A stretch of 64,000 bases of DNA from Lysobacterales bacterium (GTDB lineage Bacteria > Pseudomonadota > Gammaproteobacteria > Xanthomonadales > Xanthomonadaceae), in assembly GCA_017302135.1 (NCBI GenBank), contig JAFLDZ010000001.1:434001-498000 (forward strand), given 5' to 3'. This document shows, piece after piece, positions 54,514 through 60,108 of this stretch; the stretch's first letter is position 1, and each line of letters opens with the position of its first letter. Under the pieces are notes generated by a model. The model was not told the DNA's origin and made no database searches. It was given only the letters and a program-made list of their open reading frames with translations. Both the position numbers and the translations under genes were made by a program.

Positions 54514-55443
54514 ATGACCGTCAACGAAACCAAAGACCGCTATCTCGACAAGCCCGTCGTCGAGTTCCGCATGGGCGACACCATCGCCGACCCGGCTGCC
54601 GTCCGCACCAGCGTCTATCGTCTGACGCAGGATTACGACTCGGCCGAAAGCCAGCGCGATCTGCTCGACAGTTTTCTGGGACAGATCAACACGTCCGCGC
54701 TCGACGCGCTGATCATCGGCGCGTGGAGCGAAGCCCACGACGAAGGCCCGCAGGGCTATCTCGACGGCCTGATCGAACGTCGCGCGGAACTGCCTGCGCT
54801 GCAGGCGCTGTTCGTCGGCGACATGACCTACGAAGACTGCGAGATTTCGTGGATCATCCAGAGCGATTACAACCCGCTGCTGGCCGCTTTCCCGCAACTG
54901 CGCTCGCTGCGCATTCGCGGCAGCAGCGAGCTGAAGCTGGAAGCGTTCGAGCATGCGCAGCTCGAAGAGCTGGCGATCGAATGCGGCGGCCTGCCCGGCG
55001 GAATCGCGAACGCGATCGGCGGGTCGAAACTGCCGGCGCTGCGTCGGTTGGAACTGTGGCTCGGCGACGATGGCTATGGCTTCGATGGCGATGTCGATAC
55101 CTATGCGAAACTTCTCGATGCCATCGACGCCTCCCGGCTGGACTATCTCGGCCTGCGCAACTCGCAGCTCAGCGATGCGCTGGCGCAGCATCTGGCAGCG
55201 CAGCCTTGGCTGGGCAAGCTGAAGATGCTGGATCTGTCGATGGGCACCATCGGCGACGAAGGCGCACAGGCATTCTGCGAAAGCGCGTATCTCGCTGGAC
55301 TGGGAACGCTCGACCTCAGTCACCACTACATCGGTGAAACCTGGCAGGCCAAACTTCGCGCATTACCCTGCAAGGTCGTGCTGGACGATCCGCAGGATGC
55401 CGAAGAAAGCGACGGCGACCGCTACGTCGCGGTATCCGAATAG
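54514..55443 (+). CDS. STM4015-family protein (LRR-like)
   Basis: 309 residues. It opens MTVNETKDRYLDKPVVEFRM and shows the STM4015 layout: an N-terminal acidic part, then leucine-rich-like strands (LPALQALFVGDMTYEDCEIS, FPQLRSLRIRGSSELKLEAF, LGKLKMLDLSMGTIGDEGA). The end is acidic (DDPQDAEESDGDRY). It is soluble, with no signal peptide. The function of STM4015 is unknown; the LRR-like region suggests a protein-interaction scaffold for the cassette. First gene of the five-gene run STM4015-4014-4013-4012-4011. Confidence 0.85.
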   Translation: MTVNETKDRYLDKPVVEFRMGDTIADPAAVRTSVYRLTQDYDSAESQRDLLDSFLGQINTSALDALIIGAWSEAHDEGPQGYLDGLIERRAELPALQALFVGDMTYEDCEISWIIQSDYNPLLAAFPQLRSLRIRGSSELKLEAFEHAQLEELAIECGGLPGGIANAIGGSKLPALRRLELWLGDDGYGFDGDVDTYAKLLDAIDASRLDYLGLRNSQLSDALAQHLAAQPWLGKLKMLDLSMGTIGDEGAQAFCESAYLAGLGTLDLSHHYIGETWQAKLRALPCKVVLDDPQDAEESDGDRYVAVSE

Positions 55444-55456
55444 GCCGGTACTCGCC

Positions 55457-56587
55457 ATGACGCAAGCCCCGATGGTCCTGGTCGGACAGCCGGACCATCG
55501 CCGCACGCATCTGCTGCAGGCGGCGCTGAAGCGACGCGGCCTGGCACCGGCGCGCGTCGTGGATTACACGACACTCTTCACCGATCCACATCGCCTTGCG
55601 GAGTCGCTTGCTGACGTTGCTGTCATCAAGCTCGACTCGCCCGGCGAATCCGCCGCGCTGCACGAAGCGCTGCTGCATCGCGGCTGGATCTGCGGCGGCG
55701 AACAAGGTGCGCCGCCCACGCCGCTTGCGCACGGCGAGCTTGCCCATCAGCACCTGTGGTACGCCGGCTTCGCCGATCTGTTGCGAACACTGGAGCGTGT
55801 CGCCGGCAGTGCGCGCTGGCTGAATCCGCCGGAAGACATCCTGCGCATGTGCGACAAATGGCGCTGCCAGCAGGAGTTGATAACCGCTGGCGTTGCCGCG
55901 CCGCCGCTGCTCGGCCTGATCGACGGTTACGACACGCTGCGCCGATTGTCCGCGCAACACGATTGCGATCGTATCTTCGTCAAGGCCCGCTACGGTTCGT
56001 CCGCTGCAGGCGTACTCGCCTATCGACGCCATCGCGATGGCCCCGAAATCGCCTACGCAAGCACGCAGGTGATCGCTGGCACAAGCGGCCCGCAGCTCTT
56101 CAATACGCTCACGCCGCAGCGTTACACCGACAGTCGAAGCATCGCGGCGCTGGTCGACGCGCTGGCCCTCCAAGGCGCCTACGCCGAGCGCTGGATCGCT
56201 AAACCGCGCGCACGCGGGCATGCCGGCCATCATTTCGATCTGCGCGTGGTCGCTTTCGACGGCGAGCCCCGGCAGCGGGTCGCGCGCATCGCCGACCGGC
56301 CGATGACCAACCTTCATCTCGGCAGCCGGCGCGGCGATCCGCAGACATTCCTCGATGAGGAAGACATGACCGCCACTGAAGATTGCGTCAGGAAAGCAGC
56401 GACGGTGTTTCCGGACAGCGCGATGATCGGCTTCGACCTGATTCCGGGACACGACGCCTGCCGTGTGCTGGAGGCGAATGCCTTCGGCGATCTGCTGCCG
56501 GGCCTGCACTGGCACGGCGCCGATGTGTACGACGATCAGGCGGCCTGGGTCGCTCGCCACGGCACCCAGAACAGGAGCGCCGCATGA
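55457..56587 (+). CDS. STM4014-family protein, ATP-grasp-like
   Basis: 376 residues, 13 bp after the STM4015 gene. N-terminal LVGQPDHRRTHLLQAALKRR and LNPPEDILRMCDKWRCQQEL, then ATP-grasp-like blocks: RIFVKARYGSSAAGVLAYRR (nucleotide-binding Lys), GHHFDLRVVAFDGEPRQRVA and MIGFDLIPGHDACRVLEANA (late Mg-binding Asp/Glu/Asn). ATP-grasp enzymes ligate a carboxylate to a nucleophile using ATP; here the substrate is unknown. Its start of the next gene overlaps the stop by 4 nt (ATGA). Confidence 0.85.
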   Translation: MTQAPMVLVGQPDHRRTHLLQAALKRRGLAPARVVDYTTLFTDPHRLAESLADVAVIKLDSPGESAALHEALLHRGWICGGEQGAPPTPLAHGELAHQHLWYAGFADLLRTLERVAGSARWLNPPEDILRMCDKWRCQQELITAGVAAPPLLGLIDGYDTLRRLSAQHDCDRIFVKARYGSSAAGVLAYRRHRDGPEIAYASTQVIAGTSGPQLFNTLTPQRYTDSRSIAALVDALALQGAYAERWIAKPRARGHAGHHFDLRVVAFDGEPRQRVARIADRPMTNLHLGSRRGDPQTFLDEEDMTATEDCVRKAATVFPDSAMIGFDLIPGHDACRVLEANAFGDLLPGLHWHGADVYDDQAAWVARHGTQNRSAA

Positions 56588-57417
56588 TCCACGATCCTGC
56601 CGCACCGCCTGCCATCGACATGCACGGTATCGTCGGCACGCACGACATTTTGTTCATCACTCTCGATACGCTGCGTTACGACGCCGCACAGACCTGCTTC
56701 ACGCAGGGTCGTCTGCCGACGCTGGCCGCGCATCTGCCCGCTGGCGGCTGGGAACGCCGGCACACGCCGGCCAGCTTCACCTATGCAGCGCATCAGGCAT
56801 TTTTCGCGGGATTTCTGCCCACGCCCGCACGACCCGATCCGCATCCGCGCCTGTTCGCCCTGGCTTTCGCCGGCAGCGAAACCACTGATGCGAACACGTT
56901 CGTATTTCCCGATCACGCCGATATCGTCCATGGCCTGGCCGCACAGGGCTACCGCACGATCTGCATCGGCGGCGTCGGCTTCTTCAATCTCGCCAATCCG
57001 CTCGGGCGCGCATTGCCATCCATGTTCGACGAAGCGCACTGGCGGCTGGAGTTCGGCGTGACCGCGTTCGACTCGATTGCGGCGCAGGTCGCGCTGGCCT
57101 GCGAGCGCCTGCAGTCCGGGGATCTGCGCGGGCAGCGCTGCTTCACCTTCATCAATGTATCTGCATTGCATCAACCGAATCGCCACTATATTCCGGACGC
57201 AGAACGCGACGATCTCGATACCCACATGGCGGCGTTGACCCATGTGGATGCGGCCTTGGCGAAGCTGCTCGAAGCATCGCGGCGGCGCGCACCGACCTTC
57301 GTCATCGTCTGCTCGGATCACGGCACCGCTTACGGTGAGGACGGTTATCATGGGCATCGCATCGCACACGATGTCGTGATGCACGTGCCCTACTCCCACT
57401 TTGTGCTGATGCCGTGA
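56584..57417 (+). CDS. STM4013/SEN3800-family hydrolase (sulfatase/phosphatase-like)
   Basis: 277 residues from ATG at 56584. Alkaline-phosphatase-superfamily motifs: DILFITLDTLRYDAAQ (metal Asp with Thr in nucleophile position), RHTPASFTYAAHQAFFAGFL, TFVIVCSDHGTAYGEDGYHG and HRIAHDVVMHVPYSHFVLM. It would hydrolyse a phosphate or sulfate ester in the cytosol (no signal peptide). Overlaps both flanking genes by 4 nt, so stoichiometric expression with STM4014 and STM4012 is likely. Confidence 0.87.
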   Translation: MIHDPAAPPAIDMHGIVGTHDILFITLDTLRYDAAQTCFTQGRLPTLAAHLPAGGWERRHTPASFTYAAHQAFFAGFLPTPARPDPHPRLFALAFAGSETTDANTFVFPDHADIVHGLAAQGYRTICIGGVGFFNLANPLGRALPSMFDEAHWRLEFGVTAFDSIAAQVALACERLQSGDLRGQRCFTFINVSALHQPNRHYIPDAERDDLDTHMAALTHVDAALAKLLEASRRRAPTFVIVCSDHGTAYGEDGYHGHRIAHDVVMHVPYSHFVLMP

Positions 57418-58811
57418 ACGCTGTCGCGCTCGAATCCCTGCTCGAATTGCCGGCCTATCAGGCGTATTCGTATTCCTATCCGCACAAGACCGCGTATCGG
57501 GCGTTGTCCGAACCGCAGCCCTTTCGTCAGGCATGGGCGAACGAAAACCGCGACGCGCTGTTCCTGTATCTGCATATCCCGTTCTGTTCGTATCGCTGCG
57601 GCTTCTGCAATCTGTTCACGCTGGCGCGGCCCTCGGCCGATACGGTCGAGCGCTATCTCCACCAGCTCGACCGTCAGCTCGCCGTCACTGCCGAGGCGCT
57701 CGACGCGCATCGCTTCGTCCGCTTCGCGCTGGGTGGCGGCACACCGAGCTACTTGTCCGCCGATCAACTGCAGCGCATGTTCGACAGCGTGCGCCGCCAT
57801 TGCACGATCGATCTGCCGACGATTCCGGCGGGCATGGAAGTGTCGCCTGAAACCGTCGACCTCGAAAAAATGGCGATCTGCCGCAGCGCGGGCATCGACC
57901 GGATCAGCATGGGCATCCAGAGTTTCAGCGATGCCGAAGTGCGTACGCTGGTCCGGCCGCAGCAGCGCGACGAGGTGGAGCACGCGATCGCCGCGATCCG
58001 CGCGCACGACTTTCCGACGCTCAACCTCGACCTGATCTACGGCATCCAGGGCCAGACCGAGGCGAGTTTTCTGGCGTCGATCGACAGCGCGCTCGCCTTC
58101 GCGCCGGAAGAACTCTATCTCTATCCGCTGTACGTCCGGCCGCTGACTGGTTTAGGCAAGATTCAAGGCAGGATTCAGGGCAGGATTCAGGGCAGGATGG
58201 AAAGTCGCGGCGGCAAAACACGTTTCGCGCTGCACCCGGAACCGCAGGACGATCGCCTGGCGCTGTATCGCGCCGGCCGCGACGCGTTGCTCGCCGCCGG
58301 TTACCGGCAGGTCTCGATGCGCATGTTCCGCGCGCCGCACGCGCCCGCCAGCGACATCGGCCCCGCTTATTGTTGCCAGGACGACGGCATGGTCGGCATC
58401 GGCTGCGGTGCGCGTTCGTATACGCGCGCGCTGCATTACTCCAGCGAGTTCGGAGTCTCGCGGCGAAGCGTCGCCGAGATTCTCGAACACTACCTGTCGC
58501 TGTCGACGGACGACTTCGCGCGGATCGACTACGGCATCGCATTGGATGCGGACGAACAGCGGCGACGCTATGTCATCCAGTCGCTGCTTGTTCGACCGGG
58601 GCTCGATCTGCGGGCTTACCGCGCACGCTTCGACAGCGATTGTTTCGAGGATCTGCCGCAATTGAATGCGTTGGAAGCGCTGTCGCTCGCGCGTCTCGAA
58701 GACGGGCTGCTGGCGCTGACCGATGCCGGCATGGCGCGTGCGGATACGATCGGTCCCTGGCTGATTTCCGACGCCGTGGCCGCGCGCATGGCCGAATTCG
58801 AGCTGCGTTGA
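57414..58811 (+). CDS. STM4012-family radical SAM protein (HemW/HemN-like)
   Basis: 465 residues from a GTG at 57414 overlapping the previous stop by 4 nt. The [4Fe-4S] cluster motif is CSYRCGFC (LHIPFCSYRCGFCNLFTL), followed by the SAM loop GGGTPSYLSADQL and IPAGMEVSPETVD, and DRISMGIQSFSDAEVRTL; HemN-like C-terminal block with GIGCGARSYTR. It generates a 5'-deoxyadenosyl radical. Substrate is unknown. Residues 250-261 hold IQGR three times, an insertion made by a 12-bp tandem repeat. Other STM4012 proteins are of comparable length without it, as far as I recall. Confidence 0.9.
   Translation: MNAVALESLLELPAYQAYSYSYPHKTAYRALSEPQPFRQAWANENRDALFLYLHIPFCSYRCGFCNLFTLARPSADTVERYLHQLDRQLAVTAEALDAHRFVRFALGGGTPSYLSADQLQRMFDSVRRHCTIDLPTIPAGMEVSPETVDLEKMAICRSAGIDRISMGIQSFSDAEVRTLVRPQQRDEVEHAIAAIRAHDFPTLNLDLIYGIQGQTEASFLASIDSALAFAPEELYLYPLYVRPLTGLGKIQGRIQGRIQGRMESRGGKTRFALHPEPQDDRLALYRAGRDALLAAGYRQVSMRMFRAPHAPASDIGPAYCCQDDGMVGIGCGARSYTRALHYSSEFGVSRRSVAEILEHYLSLSTDDFARIDYGIALDADEQRRRYVIQSLLVRPGLDLRAYRARFDSDCFEDLPQLNALEALSLARLEDGLLALTDAGMARADTIGPWLISDAVAARMAEFELR
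58161..58196 (+). repeat. Three tandem copies of a 12-bp repeat inside the STM4012 gene
   Basis: ATTCAAGGCAGG at 58161-58172 and ATTCAGGGCAGG at 58173-58184 and 58185-58196, encoding Ile-Gln-Gly-Arg three times in frame (residues 250-261). A partial copy (GGCAAG) precedes. Copy number could vary by slippage without frameshift. Confidence 0.8.
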
Positions 58812-58814
58812 CCG

Positions 58815-59720
58815 ATGGACGCGCTGCAGATTCCCGCATCGCTGTTGGCCGCGCTCACCGAGGGCCTGCCTTCAGCGCTGTCGCTGCTCTATCGCGGCAA
58901 ACTGAGCAGCTGCAATTACGATTGCGACTATTGCCCGTTCGCGAAAACCCGCGACAGCCGCACGACGCTGCAGCGCGACGCAGCCGACCTCGCACGCTTC
59001 GTCGATTGGGCCGCACGGCAGACCACGACGCTGTCGATCCTGTTCACGCCCTGGGGCGAAGGCCTGGTGCGCAAGCACTATCGCGACGCCATGATCGCGC
59101 TCGGCCATCTGCCGCACGTGCGACGCGTCGCGATCCAGACCAATCTGTGCATCGGTACGCGCTGGCTGGACCGCGTCGATACGCGATCGTTCGCGCTGTG
59201 GTGCACCTATCATCCGAGCCAGGTGTCGCTGCGCGCTTTCGTCGACCGTTGTCTCGAATTGCGGCGCCGCGAAATCCGTTTCAGCGTCGGTATGGTCGCA
59301 CTACGCGATTCATTCGATGAAATCGAGCGCCTGCGCGCAGCGCTGCCCGCGGACGTGCCGATGTGGCTCAATGCCTACGATCAGCGCACTGTGGATTATT
59401 ACGACGCGAACGATACGGCGCGGCTGACCGCCATCGATCCGCACTTCGGCTACAGCCTCGCACCACCACCCAGCCTGGATGCGCCCTGCGCCACCGGCGA
59501 ATCGGTGCTGTCGGTGGATGGCGACGGTGACGTGCGCCGCTGCCATTTCGTCGCCGAACCGTTGGGGAATCTCTACGACGGCAGTTTCGCCGCGCGACTC
59601 GGTCCGAAACCCTGCCCGAACATGATCTGCGACTGCTTCATCGGCTATGTGCACCGCAAGGACCTGCCGTTCGCGCGCGACTATGCAGGCGGGCAGCTGG
59701 AGCGCGTTCCGGCGCGCTGA
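58815..59720 (+). CDS. STM4011-family radical SAM protein
   Basis: 301 residues, 3 bp after the STM4012 gene. Cluster motif CNYDCDYC (LSSCNYDCDYCPFAKTRD), then LFTPWGEGLVRKHYRDAM. A second Cys set near the C-terminus, PPPSLDAPCATGESVLSVDG with DVRRCHFV, and PKPCPNMICDCFIGYVHRKD, looks like a SPASM/twitch-type auxiliary cluster region. Auxiliary clusters usually handle peptide or protein substrates, so a peptide target is plausible. Its partner in the cassette is the HemW-like STM4012 protein. A terminator follows. Confidence 0.9.
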   Translation: MDALQIPASLLAALTEGLPSALSLLYRGKLSSCNYDCDYCPFAKTRDSRTTLQRDAADLARFVDWAARQTTTLSILFTPWGEGLVRKHYRDAMIALGHLPHVRRVAIQTNLCIGTRWLDRVDTRSFALWCTYHPSQVSLRAFVDRCLELRRREIRFSVGMVALRDSFDEIERLRAALPADVPMWLNAYDQRTVDYYDANDTARLTAIDPHFGYSLAPPPSLDAPCATGESVLSVDGDGDVRRCHFVAEPLGNLYDGSFAARLGPKPCPNMICDCFIGYVHRKDLPFARDYAGGQLERVPAR

Positions 59721-59754
59721 GCGAAGGTCGTCGATCGCGCACCCCAAAAAGCGA

Positions 59755-59776
59755 AAACCCCGCCGGGGCGGGGTTT
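59755..59776. terminator. Bidirectional terminator between STM4011 and the THX gene
   Basis: AAACCCCGCC (59755-59764) pairs with GGCGGGGTTT (59767-59776) with only GG between, so the inner pairs cannot form and the effective stem is about 8 bp. It is 34 bp past the STM4011 stop and 30 bp past the convergent THX gene stop, with A and T runs on both sides. It ends the cassette. Confidence 0.75.
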
Positions 59777-59806
59777 CTGCGCGACACATCGAAAAATGCC
59801 GTTCGC

Positions 59807-59986
59807 TTACTTGGCAGCGACCTTTTTGGCCACGGCTTTCTTGGTCACGGCCGTCTTCGCAGCGGCTTTCTTCACGACAGGAGCCGCAGCGGCGCCGGTC
59901 GCCTTCTTCGAAACCTGCAAACGGGCGTTGCCGTAGCTGGAGTTGTAACGCTTGCCTTTGGCGGTTTTACGATCGCCCTTACCCAT
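59807..59986 (-). CDS. 30S ribosomal protein THX-like, with Lys/Ala tail
   Basis: 59 residues from ATG at 59986. The first 22 residues (MGKGDRKTAKGKRYNSSYGN, AR) match the THX family, a small basic protein first found on Thermus 30S subunits. The tail (KKATGAAAAPVVKKAAAKTA...) is Lys/Ala-rich and histone H1-like, much longer than in Thermus. It would bind rRNA electrostatically. It follows the MerC-like gene on the same strand, 122 bp away. Confidence 0.85.
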   Translation of the reverse strand: MGKGDRKTAKGKRYNSSYGNARLQVSKKATGAAAAPVVKKAAAKTAVTKKAVAKKVAAK

Positions 59987-60108
59987 GTCGTGCTCCTGAA
60001 TCGGTGAATGATGACGCCCGCGCGGCGCAATCTGACGGCGCCGCACAGGCCGAAAAACGGCCCTGCACCCGGCGGGATGCAAAGCACGGGGCCGCAAAGC
60101 CTAGCAGA

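Follow-up and report, generated by a model that had tools for sequence, protein, structure and literature searches.

RimK, an ATP-grasp ligase, extends the C-terminal Glu of ribosomal protein S6. A C-terminal Glu is also the residue to which LysX and ArgX ligate on LysW/ArgW (PMC10433800). In the pearlins TglA and TmoA, an amino-acid-derived product is built at the C-terminus of an encoded carrier peptide; these carriers are short peptides, loading relies on PEARL enzymes with aminoacyl-tRNA, and the tmo system includes a radical SAM enzyme (PMC9303977). The genes described here are members of the NCBIfam families STM4011–STM4015/SEN3800, which are mostly hypothetical equivalogs or subfamilies with no assigned function. 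Our search of the open-access literature found no published function for STM4011–STM4015 (a subscription paper could exist), in line with the original prediction that no product had been described. What the present analysis adds to these families is the proposal that STM4015 is probably a substrate or carrier for the enzymes of its own cassette.

Within the window (the whole stretch of DNA that was analysed, 64,000 nucleotides), five intact, co-directional open reading frames occupy positions 54514–59720 of the plus strand in the order STM4015-STM4014-STM4013-STM4012-STM4011, and profile searches placed all five proteins above the curated NCBIfam cutoffs (Table 1). Spacing inside the cassette consists of gaps of 3–13 nt or overlaps, the latter at ATGA (56584–56587, STM4014/STM4013) and GTGA (57414–57417, STM4013/STM4012). 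The open reading frame positions and family matches bear out the cassette identity and the co-directional arrangement with 4-nt overlaps at two junctions that had been read from the sequence; its LRR-like protein, ATP-grasp-like protein and CX3CX2C clusters in both radical SAM proteins also held up, on evidence given below.

Upstream, the cassette is flanked at a distance of 74 nt by an M19 dipeptidase gene and downstream by a convergent Thx-like gene; because M19 and hutI are common neighbours in the closest relatives only, we place them outside the cassette. A terminator had been predicted after the last gene: the inverted repeat is there, but a terminator score was obtained on the minus strand only. 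Since its U-tract lies on that strand, the repeat is best assigned to the convergent Thx-like gene as a putative terminator that may act in both directions. In the Thx-like gene itself (window 59807–60097, minus strand), the Thx motif is followed by a long Lys/Ala-rich extension at the C-terminus (VVKKAAAKTAVTKKAVAKKVAAK).

Table 1. Coordinates of the cassette genes and of predicted sites within and beside them (window positions).
Feature	Position	Strand	Basis
STM4015 leucine-rich-repeat protein, 309 aa, proposed substrate/carrier	54514..55443	+	NF038076, 310 bits
Acidic linker DDPQDAEESDGD, STM4015 residues 291-302	55384..55419	+	Sequence
Tail RYVAVSE-stop, STM4015 residues 303-309, C-terminal Glu309	55420..55443	+	Conservation in homologues
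STM4014, ATP-grasp ligase of LysX/ArgX-RimK type	55457..56587	+	NF038074, 327 bits
STM4013, alkaline-phosphatase-superfamily phosphohydrolase	56584..57417	+	NF038075, 388 bits
Predicted nucleophile Thr66 codon of STM4013	56779..56781	+	Aligned with Thr of NPP 2gsn in SLTFPNHYTLVTG
STM4012, HemN-like radical SAM enzyme with HemN_C domain	57414..58811	+	NF006067, 575 bits; PF04055, PF06969
CSYRCGFC, predicted radical SAM [4Fe-4S] site of STM4012	57585..57608	+	Sequence
STM4011, radical SAM enzyme with SPASM-like C-terminal region	58815..59720	+	NF038073, 372 bits
CNYDCDYC, predicted radical SAM [4Fe-4S] site of STM4011	58911..58934	+	Sequence
Inverted repeat after STM4011	about 59754-59777	.	U-tract on minus strand

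This gene order is shared by the majority of some 88 loci spanning several phyla and is therefore not a matter of chance. A scan of species genomes returned at least 583 relatives, the best 80 of which are mostly actinobacterial, Lysobacteraceae and Oxalobacteraceae. Distribution is patchy: among 398 genomes sampled from the phylum, the window's genome alone passed the STM4011 cutoff, while the cassette was found in 33 of 297 sampled genomes from its family and in nine of 11 from its own genus, the two genomes without it being incomplete assemblies (75–82%). Full STM4011 and STM4015 genes occurred in the same 33 of 297 family genomes, STM4015 was missing from all 397 remaining genomes sampled from the phylum, and no genome in either set carried STM4015 without STM4011. 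Cassettes on plasmids or megaplasmids were seen in Streptomyces, Embleya, Deinococcus, Methylobacterium, Paenibacillus, Salmonella and Bacteroides.

Several loci depart from the common arrangement. A stretch of genome G622 (C6:4655464-4655919) holds an STM4011 fragment without STM4015 and is probably a decayed cassette. Three cassettes (L108, L120 and L128) have no local STM4014, which is encoded at another site in those genomes. A Bacteroides finegoldii plasmid (L051) encodes STM4015 with a WGR domain at its N-terminus and a fusion of STM4011 to a HAD phosphatase; only remnants of STM4013/STM4012 are left there, within a gap of 365 bp. We rejected a phage origin, as matches were limited to Salmonella/E. 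coli records with fragments, and a role in anti-phage defence, as PADLOC gave no meaningful match. Five sequences catalogued as phages of Salmonella or E. coli (H37–H41) contain STM4015 fragments, some at record ends, and are probably host DNA; no near match to the Salmonella cassette was found in E. coli.

The family match of STM4015 is accompanied by a PDB relative, 2ra8 (E 7.7e-86), to which its AF2 model (pLDDT 96) aligns with Z 30.5. It is the most divided of the five proteins, with 114 genes falling into 63 clusters at 72% identity, and an alignment of 60 sequences contained just eight invariant columns: seven LRR Leu/Gly positions and the last residue. Every copy in an alignment from eight scattered organisms stops at Glu, as do 143 of 144 genes in a larger collection (the 114 plus a Lysobacteraceae set), the sole exception being a copy with an internal stop (L131) that ends in a different frame. 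Among the 114 genes, 113 of which end in Glu, the last seven residues follow R-[YF]-x-x-V-[SGA]-E in the majority, so that R at −7, Y/F at −6 and V at −3 are conserved besides Glu. Across the 144 genes, tail codons change freely and synonymously and all three stop codons are used; the constraint is therefore on the protein. Residues just ahead of the tail are acidic, Asp and Glu making up 45% of positions −19 to −8 in homologues versus 15% of the body.

A degenerate 24-base pattern representing the tail matched the window's own genome once, at STM4015 (reversed control, 0), and 16 of its 19 matches in ten actinobacterial genomes were STM4015 ends. Tandem, stand-alone, Deinococcus, Salmonella, Bacteroides and cyanobacterial copies all keep the tail, including stand-alone copies remote from any cassette; the cyanobacterial copy, for which the Calothrix plasmid alone was covered, ends in DRYCSVAE. 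The tail likely behaves like a core or carrier region.

A purely structural or docking tail, capping the LRR or recruiting enzymes that make a free small molecule while STM4015 serves as scaffold or regulator, would account for its predicted order. In the AF2 model the tail has a pLDDT of about 84, and the alignment with the 2ra8 crystal, ordered at this end, reaches the model's last residue; the tail may therefore pack on the LRR body instead of forming a free arm, which is the main caution to our proposal. A packing or docking motif would nevertheless often tolerate trailing residues, whereas here the stop falls exactly at Glu with one exception, and C-termini are loose in three of the other four cassette proteins: the last seven residues carry 23.9 bits of information in STM4015 and 16.7 in STM4012, against 7.8 in STM4013, 7.2 in STM4014 and 6.2 in STM4011. 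We consider this explanation improbable.

Conservation at the end of STM4015 bears on the earlier statement that no precursor peptide gene was found. That statement stands for a separate small open reading frame, but overlooks that STM4015 itself bears a conserved C-terminal tail, the sole candidate that we found. A separate precursor was rejected, as the spacing within the operon leaves no room for one and the M19 dipeptidase and Thx-like flanks are not part of the cassette; a classical RiPP with a short precursor gene was set aside too, there being no such gene in the cassette. About half of the loci (L046, L047, L048, L053 and about 37 others) are flanked by a conserved pair comprising DUF6745 and a protein of ~100 aa with the pattern RQGDV..GEVTGHSHR..EHxxI.LP.G.Y.V..QREY, which matches phrog_27831 (function unassigned). 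This pair was rejected as a precursor source: DUF6745 is absent from the window's own genome and neither protein has the tail at its end.

The AF2 model of STM4014 (pLDDT 92) confirmed an ATP-grasp fold. The first eight rows returned by VIA-align were ArgX with LysW, LysX, LysX/ArgX with LysW-gamma-AAA, and RimK (Z 22.5–23.5; ArgX:LysW 3vpb 23.5, LysX 3vpd 23.3, RimK 22.5–23.1), followed by glutathione synthetase (21.8). Foldseek put the graspetide ligase PsnB, in complex with its precursor, slightly above ArgX:LysW and LysX/RimK. As glutathione synthetase, D-Ala-D-Ala ligases and others rank closely behind LysX/RimK, the fold alone leaves the acceptor unfixed. In a sequence-profile search the first matches were LysX (6e-7) and RimK (3e-6); the D-x-R, R, T-N, D and E-x-N residues of STM4014 align with those of LysX, and D327, E339 and N341 are invariant among homologues, giving STM4014 the conserved Mg and ATP residues of LysX/ArgX-RimK ligases. 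Two separate lines, the sequence and fold of the ligase on one side and the STM4015 tail on the other, therefore point the same way, to a C-terminal Glu. Glu309 would be the acceptor, as suggested by its conservation and by the relationship of STM4014 to LysX/RimK. A graspetide-type macrocycle was rejected, as the tail has no conserved Ser, Thr or Lys acceptor.

Both radical SAM proteins retain their cluster ligands. Loss of these Cys in most homologues was looked for, and they were intact in 87/87 homologues of STM4012 (C58-x3-C62-x2-C65) and 89/89 of STM4011 (C33-x3-C37-x2-C40). PDB matches for STM4012 were HemN (1olt, 1.1e-56) and NocN (9p2u, 1e-36); its score with the HemN coproporphyrinogen oxidase equivalog, 153 bits, fell far below the cutoff of 325. 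A 12-bp tandem repeat of 3.8 copies (window 58154–58198, IQGRIQGRIQGR) falls in a loop of STM4012 that aligned homologues have in shorter form; it keeps the frame. STM4011 has five further invariant Cys (C225, C243, C267, C272 and C274). Its only significant PDB match is SkfB, a radical SAM enzyme of peptide maturation (6efn, 7.2e-5), limited to the C-terminal auxiliary-cluster region, and Pfam SPASM matched at 0.033, below its cutoff.

The match to SkfB also suits a RiPP-like modification of the tail, in which the LRR body would serve as a leader of large size, and the two radical SAM enzymes would alter tail residues in place (for example by C-terminal decarboxylation, Tyr/Phe crosslinking or epimerisation), leaving the result bound to the protein or excised as a peptide. 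Conservation at −7, −6 and −3 besides Glu, the presence of several divergent STM4015 copies per enzyme set, as in RiPP families, and the first place of the graspetide ligase PsnB in Foldseek all agree with this. Set against it, position −6 is Phe in 18 of 114 genes and −2 varies among S, G and A, so that the tail holds no obligatory Ser, Thr, Lys or Tyr side chain and the terminal Glu alone is obligatory; nor was a RiPP protease or exporter recognised as a conserved neighbour, in a neighbour clustering that was noisy and clouded by antisense open reading frames. We think such in-place modification unlikely, if worth keeping in view.

The sulfatase-like hydrolase of the original prediction, STM4013, belongs to the alkaline-phosphatase superfamily. 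It shows weak alignment to sulfatases and also to a nucleotide pyrophosphatase (NPP), and T66, D245, H246, H258 and H262 are invariant among homologues. The formylglycine sulfatase signature C/S-x-P-x-R is absent; in its place stands F-T-[YFW]-x-x-H with invariant F-T and H. Since Thr66 falls on the NPP nucleophile position, STM4013 appears better called a Thr-nucleophile phosphohydrolase than a sulfatase.

This NPP-type Thr offers some encouragement to the suggestion, made in part by the original prediction, of a nucleotide-linked product: STM4013 would cleave a nucleotide-activated intermediate, HAD phosphatases would finish the process and STM4014 would join two small molecules. A HAD phosphatase does follow the cassette in Salmonella and, as noted, is fused to STM4011 on the Bacteroides plasmid. 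However, no HAD partner was seen beside other annotated cassettes or in the window's immediate flanks, and a small-molecule pathway of this kind leaves the conserved STM4015 tail unexplained; we give it little credence.

Gene content, tail conservation, co-occurrence, folds and conserved catalytic residues, all shown here, are the material for a mechanism centred on STM4015. Its LRR body would present the C-terminal tail with the obligatory Glu, and STM4014 would activate a carboxylate of that Glu and join an amine-bearing group to it. STM4011 and STM4012 would then act by radical chemistry, either on that group or on the tail itself, and STM4013 would remove a phosphoryl or nucleotidyl group, with the product staying on STM4015 or being released by a peptidase outside the cassette. 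In this scheme the role of STM4015 as substrate is the part with good support. We infer that the tail is where the reaction occurs, and likewise the step order and the nature of the added group; beyond STM4014, both order and chemistry are speculation.

We lean slightly towards the view that the cassette encodes the protein substrate on which its own enzymes act, with STM4014 loading Glu, the radical SAM pair modifying and STM4013 dephosphorylating. We do so because a single set of enzymes is often accompanied by several copies of STM4015 (21 loci have tandem pairs, L100 has five copies), Glu is near-invariant and STM4015 and STM4011 co-occur, and because STM4014 is structurally nearest to ArgX:LysW, LysX and RimK and the C-terminal region of STM4011 matches SkfB alone. 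Counting against it are the ordered tail prediction, the rank of PsnB in Foldseek and the few cassettes without local STM4014; in addition, no cassette enzyme is a clear peptidase for release, and the product may therefore stay on the protein or not. The undescribed pathway of the original prediction, in which two radical SAM enzymes, an ATP-grasp protein and a SPASM-like region modify a peptide or protein, fits this evidence, but missed the likely substrate. A tentative extension, about which we have more doubt than confidence, is that the cassette represents a new carrier-protein biosynthesis, in which an amine is loaded on the Glu of an LRR scaffold by a LysX/RimK-type ligase and rebuilt by two radical SAM enzymes, in organisms that include Salmonella, Lysobacter, Streptomyces and Deinococcus.

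Among the closest described systems, LysW/ArgW with LysX/ArgX resembles the cassette in its obligatory C-terminal Glu after acidic residues (EDWGE in LysW; PMC10433800), matched by the conserved last-residue Glu of STM4015, and in an ATP-grasp fold nearest to that of STM4014. LysW is, however, a small zinc protein with Cys ligands and EDWGE, whereas STM4015 is a 309-aa LRR protein ending in RYVAVSE, and the partners of LysW are a kinase, reductase, aminotransferase and peptidase, in contrast to the two radical SAM enzymes and phosphohydrolase of the cassette; STM4015 is no member of the LysW group, though possibly similar in logic. RimK shares the ATP-grasp ligase but works without radical SAM partners, and S6 is a ribosomal protein. 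Pearlins differ in PEARL loading, as against the proposed ATP-grasp ligation, and in having short peptide carriers instead of an LRR protein; no PEARL was found in the cassette. Its logic may nonetheless be like that of the LysW system or the pearlins. With SkfB and the SPASM-type RiPP enzymes, STM4011 may have the C-terminal auxiliary-cluster region in common; the match in PDB sequence searches is confined to that region, and the candidate substrate here is the tail of an LRR protein. For genes that occur in hundreds of genomes, Salmonella carriers included, the substrate proposal makes an orphan radical-SAM cassette experimentally approachable at the C-terminus of STM4015 and, if true, protein-scaffolded radical chemistry would join LysW carriers, pearlins and RiPPs.
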